Below, in pieces: positions 16,074 to 23,641 of a stretch of 64,000 nucleotides of DNA (position 1 is the first letter of the stretch; each line of letters begins with the position of its first letter). Origin of the DNA: an uncultured Cytophagales bacterium (lineage in GTDB: Bacteria; Bacteroidota; Bacteroidia; Cytophagales; UBA9547); contig CAMFLX010000005.1 of assembly GCA_945957555.1 (NCBI GenBank), positions 1 through 64,000 on the forward strand. Reading direction: 5' to 3'. The translations under genes were made by a program, and so were the position numbers. Below the pieces are notes generated by a model. It made no database searches. It was given only the letters and a program-made list of their open reading frames with translations, and was not told the DNA's origin.

Positions 16074-18878
16074 ATGAATAATACCGATTTTGTAAATAAA
16101 GCAATAAATTCGCGTTGTAAAATTTCTAATTGTTTGAAAATCATTCAAAACATCGTCATCAAAACACTTGTATTGACAACCATTTTGCTTTTAAATTGCA
16201 ATTTAGCAATTGCCCAAGAGCAAAGCAAACCCGATACTACATCTCGTAACACATTTGATGCCAAAAATGACAGCTCTTATACCGTTAATGGTAAAAAAAT
16301 CGTAGAGGGTAAGGGCATAGAAACCACTGTAAAATACGAATCGAAAGACTCCATTGTATATGATATGGAGAACAAACTCATCCATCTCTATGGTGATGCC
16401 AAGGTCGACTATGGTACGAGGGCACTTAATTCTGACAAAATCATCATTGACTATACCAAAAACACAGTAACTTCTATTGGGGGCACAGATAGTATTGGCA
16501 AAACCAAAGGAAGGCCAGTATTCAAAGAAGGAAGCGAAACTTATGTGGCCGACAAAATCGTGTTCAACTTCGAAACAAAGAAAGGGGTTGTATATGGTGC
16601 AGAAACTCAACAAGGTGAAGGTTTTATCAGTGGAGAGGCCATTAAAAAAAATGGAGATGATGAGCTTTTTGTAAAAGGAGCTACCTATACCACCTGCGAC
16701 AGGAAACATCCGCACTTTGGTTTTAAGGCACACAAAATCAAAATCATTACCAACAAAAAGATCCTTTCTGGACCAGGTCAGTTAGAGGTGGGTGGTACTC
16801 CACTTCCCATCTTCATTCCTTTTGGTTTTTTCCCTTACCCAAAGAGGCGCTCTTCAGGGCTTTTAATGCCTAGCTTGGCCGGAGCTTCTAATAGTGGTAA
16901 TTACCTGAGAGGCTTGGGGGTGTATTTGGCTATTAACGATTACTTGGGTCTTAAAGTACTCGGTGATATTTTCTTCAATGGAGGCTACAGGGCGAGTACC
17001 GATTTGGACTATAGGGTAAACTACAGGTTTTCGGGCAATTTCTCTTATTCACGCAACTCATTGGTGAGTGGCTTCGGAGAAACGAAACTTCAGCAACCCA
17101 TTACCAATAACGTTACTTGGAACCATAACCAGTTGGCAAAAAGGAGAGGCCGATTTAGTGCGAGGGTGAATATCAGTTCTAGTGAATACAATAGGCAAAA
17201 TGCCTCACAAATTACCCAATACGCTCAACAAGATTTTAACTCTTCTATCAACTACAGTAGGAGTTTTCCTAAAACGGGGATTAGCCTGAACCTTACCTCA
17301 TCATATACCAATAACTCCGTACAAAAAACGGCTCAAGCGCAACTCCCAACAGTAAACTTTGGCTTACCCAATGGTAAACCTTTTAAAAATGTAGGCAAAA
17401 GTGGCAAACTGCCTCTTTTACAAAACATCAATGTTAGCCCTTCATTCGAATTTAAGAATGTGATTTATAATAAAATCAGCAATTACGATACAACCATTAC
17501 CAATGGCGAATACTACAGGTATAACTTTGCCAATGTCCACAGAAGTATAGATTCTATTAAACTCAATAAAGATCTCAACTTTCAAGATCTAGCAAGGCAT
17601 TCATCGTACGGTGCTCGCTGGGCGGTAAGTATCTTTACTGATGCCAAGGTTCTAAAATACATCAATCTCAGGCCAAATTTTAATATTACGGGCAATGTAT
17701 ATGACAAATCACTGGTTTTTGCAGAGCCGTATCGCGATTCACTCTATTATCAAATCCAAAAGGGCTTGTATACGCCTTTTTCTTACAACTTTGGCGTTAC
17801 AGCTTCTACCATGATCTACGGTATGATGCGCCCTAAGATCTGGGGCTTGAAAGCCATCCGTCATGTGATGACACCAAGTGTCTCTTATTCTTTACAGCCT
17901 AAGGTAAACAAGGGGTCTGCTTATTATAACTATATGTTTCAAGAAAACCCCCTTAATACTAAAGCAGATCTGCCTAGAGCGGGTGGTATGAACAATGAAT
18001 TCATCTATGGAGCGCCTAGTGTATCAGCGTATTCTGAGGTCATTAGCTTCTCTATACTCAGTTCTATTGAGGCGAAGGTACGCGATCGGAAAGACAGCTC
18101 TGATACCGGAAAGGATAAAAAAATAAAACTGATAGAGAACCTTACTTTTAACGGAAACTATAACTTGTCCGCCGATTCTTTTAAGCTTAGCAATATCAAC
18201 GTTTCAGCGGTTACGAGGTTGTTCAATAAGATCAGTATTAATGGTAATGTGACGCTAGATCCTTATAAATATTACATTCTTGAAAAGGATGGAGTAATTT
18301 CTTATAAAAGAATCGATAGTTATCTATTCAATGATTTATTTAACGGCGGTAAGGATCCCGCTCTAGATGCAATGCCTTATAATGTAGATTCGTATTCTAT
18401 TAAAAACAACAACTATCTAGCAGATATCAGAGCTGTTTCCTTTAACATGAGTACGTCAATCAACCCTAATTGGAAGATGAAGAATAGCTATACGCCACAA
18501 GAAGAAGCGCTGTTCAGAATCTATCCTTACCTGCGCTACGTGGATTTCTCGTTACCTTGGAACGCGAGTATCAGCTATCAGTTCAACGATAGTAGGCCAG
18601 TTTGGGGCCCTGCCACCACTTCGAAAACAGTAAACGTTTCGGGAAACTTAACGATTCTAGATTCTTGGAAAGTTAATTATTCTACCTCCTACGACTTGAA
18701 AACATTCAAGTGGGGGGGGCATCAACTCGGGATTATCAAAGATCTACATTGCTGGCAAATTTTGTTCAACTGGACACCGTCGAATGCCTATGCGACTTAC
18801 ACCTTTAAGTTGTCTGCTAAAGCAAGTACTTTGAAAGGTTTCGAGCCCATCCAAAAGAATGGTACTTCGGCGTTTTAA
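16074..18878 (+). CDS. lptD: LPS-assembly outer membrane protein LptD, Bacteroidota type
   Basis: A 934-residue protein that inserts lipopolysaccharide into the outer leaflet. A hydrophobic segment (about residues 30-47, LVLTTILLLNCNLAIAQ) is the signal peptide. An LptA/OstA-like periplasmic domain follows (YDMENKLIHLYGDAKVDYG, ADKIVFNFETKKGVVYG, FISGEAIKK), then YTTCDRKHPHFGFKAHKIKI, the segment corresponding to the conserved cysteine region before the barrel, and IPFGFFPYPKRRSSGLLMPS, the barrel entry. The rest is a 26-strand-type beta barrel. The ATG at 16074 gives 20 residues before the signal core; a TTG at 16134 would give a textbook signal peptide and a 60-base gap to the amidase, so the start is uncertain. 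A run of eight G bases (18712-18719) lies near the 3' end. Confidence 0.88.
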   Translation: MNNTDFVNKAINSRCKISNCLKIIQNIVIKTLVLTTILLLNCNLAIAQEQSKPDTTSRNTFDAKNDSSYTVNGKKIVEGKGIETTVKYESKDSIVYDMENKLIHLYGDAKVDYGTRALNSDKIIIDYTKNTVTSIGGTDSIGKTKGRPVFKEGSETYVADKIVFNFETKKGVVYGAETQQGEGFISGEAIKKNGDDELFVKGATYTTCDRKHPHFGFKAHKIKIITNKKILSGPGQLEVGGTPLPIFIPFGFFPYPKRRSSGLLMPSLAGASNSGNYLRGLGVYLAINDYLGLKVLGDIFFNGGYRASTDLDYRVNYRFSGNFSYSRNSLVSGFGETKLQQPITNNVTWNHNQLAKRRGRFSARVNISSSEYNRQNASQITQYAQQDFNSSINYSRSFPKTGISLNLTSSYTNNSVQKTAQAQLPTVNFGLPNGKPFKNVGKSGKLPLLQNINVSPSFEFKNVIYNKISNYDTTITNGEYYRYNFANVHRSIDSIKLNKDLNFQDLARHSSYGARWAVSIFTDAKVLKYINLRPNFNITGNVYDKSLVFAEPYRDSLYYQIQKGLYTPFSYNFGVTASTMIYGMMRPKIWGLKAIRHVMTPSVSYSLQPKVNKGSAYYNYMFQENPLNTKADLPRAGGMNNEFIYGAPSVSAYSEVISFSILSSIEAKVRDRKDSSDTGKDKKIKLIENLTFNGNYNLSADSFKLSNINVSAVTRLFNKISINGNVTLDPYKYYILEKDGVISYKRIDSYLFNDLFNGGKDPALDAMPYNVDSYSIKNNNYLADIRAVSFNMSTSINPNWKMKNSYTPQEEALFRIYPYLRYVDFSLPWNASISYQFNDSRPVWGPATTSKTVNVSGNLTILDSWKVNYSTSYDLKTFKWGGHQLGIIKDLHCWQILFNWTPSNAYATYTFKLSAKASTLKGFEPIQKNGTSAF

Positions 18879-18991: not shown

Positions 18992-19477
18992 ATAGTCGTC
19001 ACGCATGGCAGAATAACAGTTAATCATAAGCTCCTAACGGCCGAACATTGACACATAATAGACGAACATAACCTGATAACAGTCAAACATAGGTATATAA
19101 CAGTTAATCATAGCTTCATAACAGCCGATCATGGGCGACTAACAGGCAAACATAGGCACATAACGGTCAATCATGGACACATAACAGACAAAAATAGGTG
19201 CATAACAGTCAAACATAGCTTCATAACAGCCGAACATGGGCGACTAACAGGCAATCATAGCCTCATAACAATTAAACATAGGCTCATAACAGTCAAACAT
19301 GGCTTCATAACAGGCGATCATGGGCGACTAACAGGCGATCATGGGCAGCTAACGGGCAAGCATAGCCTCATAACAGGCGAACTTAAGCTCCTAATGGGCA
19401 AACATAGCTTCATAACAGCCGATCATGGGTAGCTAAGGGACAATCAAAATGGTGATAAAAGGCGAATCTGCCCATAG
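18992..19477. repeat. Tandem array of a 21-bp repeat, about 22 units
   Basis: This 605-base gap between two convergent genes is filled mostly by a degenerate tandem repeat. Units start exactly 21 bases apart from 19013 through 19433 (19013, 19034, 19055 and so on, 21 units), preceded by a weaker unit at 18992 and followed by a decayed one at 19455. The consensus is [A/C]TAACAG-N-CRAWCAT-RG-N4. A higher-order pattern is visible: an AGCTTC-ending unit, then ATAACAGCCGATCATGGGCGA, then a CTAACAGGC unit recur at 19097, 19202, 19286 and 19391, that is every 4 to 5 units. The array is not CRISPR (no spacers). Bases 18879-18991 between the lptD stop and the array show no feature. The period equals two turns of B-DNA. 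Confidence 0.92.
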
Positions 19478-19483
19478 AAAATC

Positions 19484-22400
19484 TTATTGCTCCGATCTGC
19501 CTTCGATCATGATAAAAGCACCCCAGGCGAGAGGTGCGTTGTATTTTTGCTTGATGGTTCTTTTGGCTTCGTTGAATGCAGTACGTTTGTCTTTACTATT
19601 GATCCAGTTTTCATAAAAGGTCAGCATGAGATCGTGCGTTACTTCATCATTTACCTTAAATAGTGAAATAACTACGCAGTTGGCGCCTGCGACTAAGAAT
19701 GAACGTTGCAGACCCATTACCCCTTCCCCTACTTGCACTTTACCTTTTCCTGTTTCACAGGCACTCAGTACTACCATTTCAGTATGGTCTAGGTCCATAT
19801 CCATGGCTTCGTAAGCGGTAAGAATTCCTTTAGTAGAGGTGCTTGCACTGGTATGTGCCAATAAATCACCAGCGCCTGCTAGTAAAATACCCGAATTGAA
19901 CAGTGGATTGGCCTCCTTGTTGGCAGGATCGTCTTGATTTACCTCCTTAAAAAAACCATGAGTAGCTATGTGTAACACAAGAGGCTTCTTGAGTGCCAAC
20001 ACGGTGTCTTCAGTAACGTCGTGAGACAGCAATACATTGGACTGTTTATTGTGTTTGGCTATGAGTTCTCCAATATCCACGGCCTCGCGCTCTGCACCAG
20101 TTAGGGTGCTGATGTTTTGTACTTTAGCAGTTGTGGCATCACTATAGAACTTAGGATTGCCACAGACCACAAACTTCTGATTAGCGACAGCAATTTTACT
20201 ATTTTTTGTATGGGACCTAGACTTCACATAAGGGATGATATCCTTGGTGTTTGTTAGATAAACGATTTCATTATTGTCGATTACATATTGGTCTACATCA
20301 GGATACTTGAGCATCTCAAGGTTGATCTGATTAAAAATACCTTCTGACGAAATATACACCAATGCTGAATCAGGTATTTTGGCTTTGAGTGCTTTCCAGT
20401 AGGTATTGTAGGAGTATTTATCAGGGTAATTGTTCATTACGGCATTCACATAGTATCGATAGTTGCGATTTTCCATGTTTTTGGCATTTTCATAGACAAC
20501 CAATTCTGGGCCATCGGTACTTTGCTTACTCAAGACCAATGCAGCATAGATTACCGAATCTTTGAACTCCTTATCAAAAAACCTATATCGCACAATCTCT
20601 ACGGCATATTGTTTGTCGTGCAACTGCGCCTGCACTTCTTTCCATGTTGGGCTATGAGTCTCATTGTTCTTCTTGAACAGCTCTGACCTTTCGCCCATCT
20701 CCTTTTCCAGTTGTTCCAAGCGAGCCTCTTCTTTGTTAAAGTTGAAACCCTGTTCCTGAATTTGTTCTTTGGTCATGGAAAGTAACGAGTTGTACAGTTC
20801 CTTTTGAATCAACCATTCATTGAATATTCTGATCAGCGTAGTGTCGTTAGAAGCCATGATTTGTTTCCTAAGCTTGATGTCGGAAGAAAGCAAAAGTGCT
20901 TTGGTCGAGATCACGTTATTGTACACGTTGCCCAACAAGCCAGATGTGGGTTTACCTGCGGCACTTAAAATGAGGAAATTATAGAACTCGAATTCATCTT
21001 TCATACTCGCCCAGAACTTACTCTTTTCTTGAAAACTGAGCGAAGGAAAATACTTGTTTACATAGTCCAAGTATTTGGGCATGCACTCTTCCATGAGCGT
21101 CAAACTTAGTGTTTGGTTATGCAACATATAAGCTACTTTGGCTAGCTTGGCTAGGGCAAGTGTATAGGAGGGATGACGCGTGCTAAAGATACTCCCATAT
21201 ATATTTTTTGCTTGCGTATAGTGCGTCTCCGCCTCATTATATAGAGATTTCTGATAGGCGATCTTCCCCTTGATCATGGTAAGATCTGCAAGATGCACAC
21301 TTTTGGTACCATATCTTGAAACCCAAAACTTCTCTGCTTCAATCAATATATCAGAGGCTTGGTCATACTTCTTGTTGGAGATATACAGATCGGCAAGTAC
21401 CTGAAGATAATTGGCATACAAATGGTTCTCTTTGCCTATTGAAGCTTCCATAATGTGCCCAGCCTTGGTGAGTAGGTTTTCAATATTAGCATAGTCGCTG
21501 GCGTGGAGGATCAAATTCAAATGCGATAAATCGATATAAGTGGCCGATAGGCGGTGTTGTTTCAGCCCCAAAAGCTTTTCTTGAATACCTTGAGCATTGA
21601 CGATCATTTCTTTAGCTTTGTCGTAATCACCAATGGCTGAATATAGCTTACTCCAAAGAGTGAGACCTTCACTGGCCACAAAAGAATTCTCGCCAAAAGA
21701 CTGATGAGCAATGGTGGAGTACTGTGTCAAACTATTCTCTACTTTGGCATAGTTACCCACTACGATATAAAGATCGGCCAAGTGTATATAGGTGCTCAGC
21801 AAAGCGGTATGATGTATGCCAAGTTTAGCCTTCTTCTCCTCCAAAACTTGAAGTAAAAGCTTTTCAGCCATGTTGATGTTGTTGTATTCAATATAACTCT
21901 GAGCCGTTTTCTCCTTAATATTTTGGTTTTCAATGGCACTATGATGAGCCTGGCTTGAAAACAACTTGACCGCTTTAGAAATATACCTTTTCTGTTGTTC
22001 TATATCTCCAAACAACTCAGCCAATTCAGCTGCTTTCTCACAATAATCCAAATAGTGATATTGGTTTTTGCCCAAAACCATTTGTTTTTCTACGCTTTTA
22101 AAATGTACATAATGATCTATGGCATCCACATAATCACTAGCAAATACACAGGATTTAATAAATGACCACTCTATGGCTAAATGCTCCCAAGACTCGGAAC
22201 CATATAACTTAGCAGACATGGCTACAGCCTGTGCTGAGATAAGCTTAGCTTCTGCGAATCTATCTGCTGAGAAATACAAATCGGAAAGTGTTTGCAAATA
22301 CTTCAAGTGTACACTACTACATGTATCATTTTGATCCAAAATATACTTTTTCTGTTGGGCACGCACCCAGTCTATGGTTGAGGCCAGCTGCTGAGGTGAA

Positions 22401-23641
22401 TGTGTTTGATGGATCACTTGTGCTAATCTGCATCTTAAATAAGCAGGTCCATCACCTACATATTTGAGAGAAAGCTTCGCTAGAGTATCTAAGATCGTCC
22501 CGGTTACGTCTTGGGAATCATTTTCAGCATTAATATTTTGAACAAGGGTCAAAAAATCGTATTTGAAGCCGTGGTTTTCTGGGATTTGCGCATAGCGGTC
22601 CGTGAGCTTCTTCAAACGCTTTTCGGCCAGATCATATTCTCCTTTGGCATAGTAGGTATATACTTGTGCAAAAGCATGTGCCAGTTGATAACCATTGTAT
22701 CTGTTGATGTTACGATCGGCATACATTTGCAAATGCCTGATGTATTGGTCGTAAGTGTTATGATCTTCTAAAAAACTACTGAGGTTGGTGATCTTGAGGC
22801 ATAACCTGATTTTCTGTTTTTGGTATTCAGAGGTGTTCAATACAAAGTAGGCATCCCTCAGCATTTTTAGCGCTTTGTTGTAATCCTTTTTTTGTTGATA
22901 AAGTGCTGCTTTGTATTCCAAAAAAGAACTGTGTTCGAGTGGTTGTCCTCGTAAAATTGCAATGGGCAACACCATTTGCTCCGCTTGCATATAGCGACCA
23001 CTATGAAGCAACAAACTTAAACGGAGCACTGTCGCTTTTGCCTTGAATTGTTGCAGCTGTGACCTTAAATGGAGCAGGGAATCTGTAAATCCTGGAGTAA
23101 TTTTAGTATGTGCAAATAATGTATCCAACTGGTCAAAAGCATTCTGGGCCTTTGCAAAATGTTCCTGCTCTGTCAGAAATTTTATTTGCTCCAATTGATA
23201 AGCATGTGCAAGCAATGCCTCAGTTTTAGAAGCTAAGACCGAACACTTTGCATGACTTTGAGCCGCTAGTAAAAAAGAGCCCGTTTCATTATAATATTCG
23301 GTAAGATACAAGTTACATAAGGCCCTATCTTGTTCATTATGCAGGGTGTCTATTTCAGACAAAACTTCTGGAAGTAGTTTGTTCACTTCGCGAAAGGAAA
23401 GCACCGAATAGTAGGACTTGAGTAATAGAACCTTAGCCTTAATGGTTAAGACACTGGGTACTGGGGCATGCCTCTTGAGTGAACTGATGAAGGTGCCATC
23501 GTCTGCGATGGCTTCTGCATACTTGCCATCCATATATAGCCGCTCTATCTCGACAAATTTATTTTCCAATATCTGCTGGCTGCTCACTGCTTGGGCAGTA
23601 ACCATGGCAAACAAATATATATGGCACATTATTTTTTTCAT
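19484..23641 (-). CDS. Exported TPR-CHAT protein (caspase-like protease domain)
   Basis: A 1385-residue protein. MKKIMCHIYLFAMVTAQAVSS is a signal peptide. Residues from about 30 to 900 are repeating helical pairs of tetratricopeptide type (SYIEYNNINMAEKLLLQVLEEKKAKLG, YAKVENSLTQY and YDKAKEMIVNAQGIQEKLLG are clear examples). A helical linker with charged coiled coil (about 960-1010) leads to a C-terminal CHAT domain, a caspase-like cysteine peptidase of clan CD, with the dyad His1228 in HIATHG and Cys1295 in LSACETG, and the GEGVMGLQRSFLVAGA and LFKVND segments typical of the family. Both catalytic residues are present. It is the last gene of an operon, 33 bases after the PorP/SprF gene. Location after export (periplasm or surface) and substrate are unknown. 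Confidence 0.9.
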   Translation of the reverse strand: MKKIMCHIYLFAMVTAQAVSSQQILENKFVEIERLYMDGKYAEAIADDGTFISSLKRHAPVPSVLTIKAKVLLLKSYYSVLSFREVNKLLPEVLSEIDTLHNEQDRALCNLYLTEYYNETGSFLLAAQSHAKCSVLASKTEALLAHAYQLEQIKFLTEQEHFAKAQNAFDQLDTLFAHTKITPGFTDSLLHLRSQLQQFKAKATVLRLSLLLHSGRYMQAEQMVLPIAILRGQPLEHSSFLEYKAALYQQKKDYNKALKMLRDAYFVLNTSEYQKQKIRLCLKITNLSSFLEDHNTYDQYIRHLQMYADRNINRYNGYQLAHAFAQVYTYYAKGEYDLAEKRLKKLTDRYAQIPENHGFKYDFLTLVQNINAENDSQDVTGTILDTLAKLSLKYVGDGPAYLRCRLAQVIHQTHSPQQLASTIDWVRAQQKKYILDQNDTCSSVHLKYLQTLSDLYFSADRFAEAKLISAQAVAMSAKLYGSESWEHLAIEWSFIKSCVFASDYVDAIDHYVHFKSVEKQMVLGKNQYHYLDYCEKAAELAELFGDIEQQKRYISKAVKLFSSQAHHSAIENQNIKEKTAQSYIEYNNINMAEKLLLQVLEEKKAKLGIHHTALLSTYIHLADLYIVVGNYAKVENSLTQYSTIAHQSFGENSFVASEGLTLWSKLYSAIGDYDKAKEMIVNAQGIQEKLLGLKQHRLSATYIDLSHLNLILHASDYANIENLLTKAGHIMEASIGKENHLYANYLQVLADLYISNKKYDQASDILIEAEKFWVSRYGTKSVHLADLTMIKGKIAYQKSLYNEAETHYTQAKNIYGSIFSTRHPSYTLALAKLAKVAYMLHNQTLSLTLMEECMPKYLDYVNKYFPSLSFQEKSKFWASMKDEFEFYNFLILSAAGKPTSGLLGNVYNNVISTKALLLSSDIKLRKQIMASNDTTLIRIFNEWLIQKELYNSLLSMTKEQIQEQGFNFNKEEARLEQLEKEMGERSELFKKNNETHSPTWKEVQAQLHDKQYAVEIVRYRFFDKEFKDSVIYAALVLSKQSTDGPELVVYENAKNMENRNYRYYVNAVMNNYPDKYSYNTYWKALKAKIPDSALVYISSEGIFNQINLEMLKYPDVDQYVIDNNEIVYLTNTKDIIPYVKSRSHTKNSKIAVANQKFVVCGNPKFYSDATTAKVQNISTLTGAEREAVDIGELIAKHNKQSNVLLSHDVTEDTVLALKKPLVLHIATHGFFKEVNQDDPANKEANPLFNSGILLAGAGDLLAHTSASTSTKGILTAYEAMDMDLDHTEMVVLSACETGKGKVQVGEGVMGLQRSFLVAGANCVVISLFKVNDEVTHDLMLTFYENWINSKDKRTAFNEAKRTIKQKYNAPLAWGAFIMIEGRSEQ

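Follow-up and report, generated by a model that had tools for sequence, protein, structure and literature searches.

The window analysed here, 64,000 nucleotides from an uncultured Cytophagales bacterium, carries between two convergent genes a tandem array of 21 bp units, the sequence of which has diverged widely while their length has not. The question which this locus raises is whether the spacing, rather than the sequence, is what is being kept, and where the value of 21 bp comes from. The original prediction, made from the letters of the window, had noted that 21 bp makes two turns of B-DNA and had supposed that selection on the spacing places a protein-binding core, AACAG...CAT, on one face of the helix.

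The array is made of 22 successive 21-mers, starting at 18992, 19013 and so on up to 19433 (Table 1), and the consensus of its core units is ATAACAGTCAAACATAGGCTC. At a lag of 21 bp, 284 positions out of 441 are identical, versus 120 +/- 9 in shuffled sequences (maximum 151 over 2000 shuffles). The number of units and the exact period were thus correctly predicted for these 22 units, in which there is no indel, but the decayed 23rd unit, ATAAAAGGCGAATCT, starts at 19455 and not at 19454. This means that the phase is lost at the 3' edge of the array. Joining the 22 units in a minimum spanning tree takes about 77 substitutions and not a single indel. Absence of slippage had also been claimed; this is true of single bases but not of whole units. 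Indeed, the similarity between units reaches 0.71, 0.73 and 0.74 at separations of 4, 5 and 9 units, versus about 0.65 elsewhere, and TRF, which recovers the array, finds higher-order periods of 63, 84 and 105 bp. From these peaks and from the blocks of 84 and 105 bp, we concluded that the array grew by duplications of several whole units at once. It has the head-to-tail noncoding units of 10-60 bp of a bacterial intergenic minisatellite of the VNTR type (22 x 21 bp, in a gap of 605 bp), as well as the whole-unit length changes of that type, seen as blocks of four and five units here and as 21 bp gaps between homologous arrays elsewhere. Considered alone, the array is an ordinary old minisatellite, the phase of which is well kept.

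Table 1. Features of the array and of its two neighbouring genes (positions in the window).
Feature	Coordinates	Strand	Description
LptD-type LPS assembly protein, upstream convergent neighbour	16074..18878	+	Pfam LptD_2, E 9.5e-116
Decayed unit 1	18992..19012	.	in phase; 11/21 vs consensus
Core of the array, 20 units, each exactly 21 bp	19013..19432	.	14-19/21 vs consensus, 0 indels
Higher-order blocks, 5-unit (105 bp) and 4-unit (84 bp)	19076..19375	.	TRF 105-bp period, 81% matches; identity peaks at unit separations 4, 5, 9
Decayed unit 22	19433..19453	.	in phase; 10/21 vs consensus
Unit-23 remnant	19455..19466	.	+1 base out of register; wraparound alignment reaches 19466 with one insertion
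TPR + CHAT domain protein, downstream convergent neighbour	19484..23641	-	Pfam CHAT 1.2e-52, TPR_12 5.4e-16

Some columns of the array (TAA, A and T) are invariant and look like a core. We counted for every column only the number of distinct bases, a measure of mutation which recombination between units cannot inflate; its variance to mean ratio is 0.57, which is not over-dispersed, and therefore the invariant columns are not evidence of selection. The genome-wide search which had been suggested for further copies of the core motif, TAACAGNCRAWCAT, gave one match outside the array in 6.25 Mb, on contig C163. The reversed control pattern also gave one match, and by our own estimate a single match is about what chance would produce in a genome of this size. 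The consensus displays no dyad symmetry and no substructure of 7 bp or of 10-11 bp (10.5 bp). With a chance-level match, no dyad and columns that are not over-dispersed, the protein-binding core finds no support. The assembly of the same genome holds no second copy of the array; its RNA fold, on either strand, is no better than that of shuffled sequences (z -0.3 and +1.4); Rfam has no family in the window; no promoter or terminator was found within the array and no inverted repeat near it. There is no evidence for a sequence-specific function of this array.

Known kinds of repeats were also compared to it. It is not a CRISPR, as its units abut and there are no unique spacers between them, and it is not a BrickBuilt-like MITE, as it has neither terminal inverted repeats nor a second genomic copy. 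Plasmid iterons are direct repeats of 18-22 bp, bound by Rep proteins and set in phase at about two helical turns. The array was rejected as such, its neighbours coding for LptD, TPR/CHAT and PorP/SprF proteins with no adjacent replication initiator gene; it differs from iterons also by its 22 units, versus a few, and by the many unrelated arrays found on many contigs of the same genome. Its DNA has no match among 72,556 plasmids, nor among phages.

The convergent arrangement of the flanking genes was confirmed, and beyond them lie the PorP/SprF protein, a C25 peptidase and a giant protein bearing CHU_C, neighbours which identify the host as a member of the Bacteroidota. The TPR/CHAT protein belongs to a family which is expanded in this genome, with eleven matches (contigs C5, C109, C63, C136, C93, C2 and C266), some of them at contig ends. 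The position between two 3' ends had been taken as an argument against promoter control. This argument is not general, for the arrays described below occur in convergent, tandem and divergent gaps alike. Convergent gaps are enriched nevertheless, accounting for 7 of the 18 gaps bearing an array versus 53 of 359 gaps of at least 100 bp (p = 0.009). This placement fits with a tolerance of arrays at the 3' ends of genes, and the enrichment alone is no proof that arrays act as terminators.

We then considered 1.26 Mb of the same genome, window included, that is about 20% of its 6.25 Mb. A scan of lags from 8 to 63 bp in this sample detected 26 arrays, versus none in shuffled sequence. Their lags are 21 bp (five arrays), 42 bp (ten), 63 bp (two), 40, 41 or 43 bp (five), 22 bp (one), and 12, 14 and 36 bp (one each, two of these three being coding). 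When the period was determined by wraparound alignment, 21 bp was the best one for 21 of 24 arrays. In noncoding DNA, obtained by masking every ORF of at least 60 aa, the lags 42, 21 and 63 are the first three of 65 (z 9.5, 8.7 and 7.5), the next one being lag 8 with a z of 3.5. Once the arrays are masked, a weak excess persists at 21, 42 and 63 bp (z 2.8, 2.2 and 2.4), which means that further decayed arrays are probably present. No excess was seen at three helical turns (31-32 bp). By extrapolation, the whole genome would contain about 100 such arrays, an estimate and not a count, biased slightly upwards in density because one contig of the sample, C75, was chosen for its known arrays: it had been read after a weak match led there, and it held two 21 bp arrays of other sequence.

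Between loci, the unit consensuses are similar at chance level only, with the exception of those shared by contigs C75 and C8, by C13 and C14, possibly by C4 and C8, and of a dispersed 41 bp family. Conservation of the unit length and not of the sequence, which had been remarked on for the window, therefore holds in some 20 further arrays of this 20% sample, and it seems that spacing rather than sequence is kept across arrays of mostly unrelated units. Arrays with periods of 20, 22 and 40-43 bp are also present, so that 21 bp is a strong preference and a soft rule, not an absolute one. The common register is statistically well supported in the sample. Two-copy repeats outside the arrays have no peak at 21 bp (1 of 17). 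Although the number is small, this favours a preference acting on the maintenance of arrays over one acting on their birth.

The homologous arrays of C75/C8 and of C13/C14, whose copies share sequence extending beyond the array, made it possible to follow length changes directly. All their internal length differences (three gaps out of three) are of exactly 21 bp. Inside these paired arrays we counted no gap other than whole units for 86 substitutions, versus 4 small gaps for 39 substitutions in the homologous flanks (Fisher p = 0.011, a figure resting on two array pairs). With a wider definition of the flanks, part of which is possibly not homologous, p becomes 8e-5. Over 23 arrays of best period 21, two of which come from relatives, wraparound alignment gave 48 gap steps versus 1260 mismatches: small indels within arrays are rare, though present.

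On C75 (L012, 700-1041), two neighbouring 21 bp arrays have distinct units, GCATTGTAGTAAAGGAACCAT and TGGGCACCAGCCTTCGGTGCT, and this couple is repeated on C8 (L145, 7662-8084). Homologous 21 bp arrays at L158 (3241-3572) and L160 (11236-11550) lie on opposite strands, with two alternating types of units forming a 42 bp super-repeat and with a terminal inverted half unit. The dispersed tandem-repeat family of about 41 bp is found at L105 (3193-3473), L152 (14701-14939) and L125 (9635-9763), and its unit size is like that of PgRS/MITE464 of Porphyromonas gingivalis. A separate dispersed intergenic repeat of about 90-190 bp occurs in both orientations (L160, 10679-11040; L113, 2617-2805; L121, 9994-11098).

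In relatives the preference may be less marked. Of two genomes from the same family, one (G004) has one clear 21 bp array of noncoding length in 378 kb, with a codon signature, and the other (G003) has arrays of mixed periods. The G004 array (L164, 1434-1801) has 17 units repeating the heptapeptide LSDTRER, with a codon signature at p = 0.001, unlike the array of the window. In a pooled sample of the family, lag 21 heads the noncoding profile (z 5.6, 33 kb), partly because of 7 bp repeats; in a wider sample of the order it is weakly raised (2.7). Such arrays and any excess at lag 21 are absent from 150 kb of E. coli K-12, and no array was found in 100 kb of a Flammeovirga megaplasmid. The DNA of the window array has only short matches in relatives, almost all in the E range 0.01-1 (best 0.0018, over about 40 bp), and a scan of named genomes for relatives gave only a distant Omnitrophota locus. 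Comparison of the orthologous gap for the presence and phase of the array is uninformative on selection, since the nearest LptD among the relatives' genomes, none of them congeneric, is only 37-39% identical. The strong 21 bp preference is thus a trait of this genome, possibly with a weaker form in its kin.

We consider, with a probability of roughly 0.55, that the array of the window belongs to a genome-wide set of phase-locked intergenic minisatellites which have in common a 21 bp register but mostly not a sequence, which change in length by whole units, and the register of which is a constraint specific to this lineage. Arrays would gain and lose whole 21 bp units, and blocks of them, presumably by slippage or unequal recombination; these whole-unit changes were observed in two homologous pairs of arrays, and the genome-wide set in the 20% sample. 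The units would then drift by substitution, those falling out of register being lost or left uncopied, which may be what locks the phase. Arrays would be tolerated chiefly downstream of genes, where the damage they cause is smallest. As far as a small sample can indicate, a constraint peculiar to this lineage most likely underlies the value of 21 bp, and two helical turns would be its simplest candidate; this constraint probably acts when arrays expand or persist and not at the birth of two-copy duplications. Nothing supports the helical-turn reading directly, and there is no sub-period of 10-11 bp within the units. Three readings of the 21 bp remain: a register constraint at expansion or maintenance, descent from one spreading minisatellite, and a phased nucleoprotein.

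Descent supposes that one ancestral 21 bp minisatellite spread through the genome, perhaps on a mobile element, after which turnover erased its sequence while the unit length was inherited. Three dispersed families (C75/C8, C13/C14 and the 41 bp family of L105, L152 and L125), seen in the 20% sample, speak for it; the first two share sequence beyond the array. On the other hand, most units resemble each other at chance level, the dispersed copies do not end in terminal inverted repeats, and nothing else in the genome is related to the window array. We regard this history as possible, although we would not expect it to be the right one. A bolder reading, in which a structure bound to DNA or a copying machine, indifferent to sequence and advancing by a fixed step of 21 bp, makes or maintains the extrapolated 100 or so arrays, so that the register itself is an inherited trait and the arrays a bacterial counterpart of satellite DNA, seems to us rather unlikely.

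Helically phased binding, in which a putative nucleoid protein with a weak sequence preference occupies one face of the DNA in each unit and selection retains the 21 bp and not the sequence, would account for a phase held across about 77 substitutions in the window and for a register common to unrelated sequences. It is at odds with the lack of a dyad, of a conserved core, of a 10-11 bp modulation and of a genome-wide motif, and with the persistence of arrays of 20, 22, 41 and 43 bp; we find it doubtful. That the array is simply a decaying minisatellite with a period of 21 bp by coincidence is more improbable still: bacterial intergenic minisatellites are common and whole-unit duplication explains the growth of this one, but the genome-wide excess at 21, 42 and 63 bp contradicts coincidence, unless the 20% sample is unrepresentative. 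Finally, a relic of a gene for heptapeptide repeats (seven codons making 21 bp), to which the multiples of 3 (21, 42, 63), the ITVKHRL-like repeats of frame 1 (the sole nearly open frame, with two internal stops) and the true codon signature of the G004 array might point, is largely refuted for the window array and very improbable, since variation is equal at the three codon positions (p = 0.95), the synonymous fraction stays at 0.15-0.19 whichever of the six frames is read, the two stops interrupt frame 1, the ORF list has no ORF of at least 60 aa inside the array, the other arrays of the genome have no significant codon signature, and arrays of 20, 22, 41 and 43 bp exist.

The closest known systems are the 23 bp BrickBuilt and the 41 bp PgRS/MITE464 minisatellites of Porphyromonas gingivalis, another member of the Bacteroidota, both of which lie inside MITEs with IS5-type inverted ends; this species has further repeats of 22 bp (PMC4596501). 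BrickBuilt resembles our arrays in being intergenic, in having tandem units which abut without spacers and measure 23 bp, about two helical turns, and in its many copies per genome (PMC4596501). It differs from them by a single unit sequence, a leader, a tail and terminal inverted repeats, whereas our arrays are mostly of unrelated 21 bp units, and a search for terminal inverted repeats gave none. PgRS/MITE464 is a second and unrelated minisatellite of P. gingivalis (PMC4596501), just as this genome has its dispersed 41 bp family beside the 21 bp arrays; it is bounded by IS5-type inverted repeats, whereas none were seen at those of our arrays that were tested.

Eukaryotic satellite DNA has a unit length steadier than its sequence, gains and loses whole units, and forms local libraries of variants. 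Our arrays likewise keep their unit length while the sequence turns over; they differ in being short, in lying in bacterial intergenic gaps and in having no indication of a centromeric role. In open-access papers, we found no report of a period common to bacterial arrays of unrelated sequence, as the 21 bp are here. A unit length common to many unrelated arrays in one bacterium is hard to reconcile with ordinary slippage, which is expected to produce units of varied length. If it is borne out in a closed genome, this bacterium would offer a natural system in which to find what determines how long the units of minisatellites are, be it the helical pitch of DNA, a bound protein or descent.
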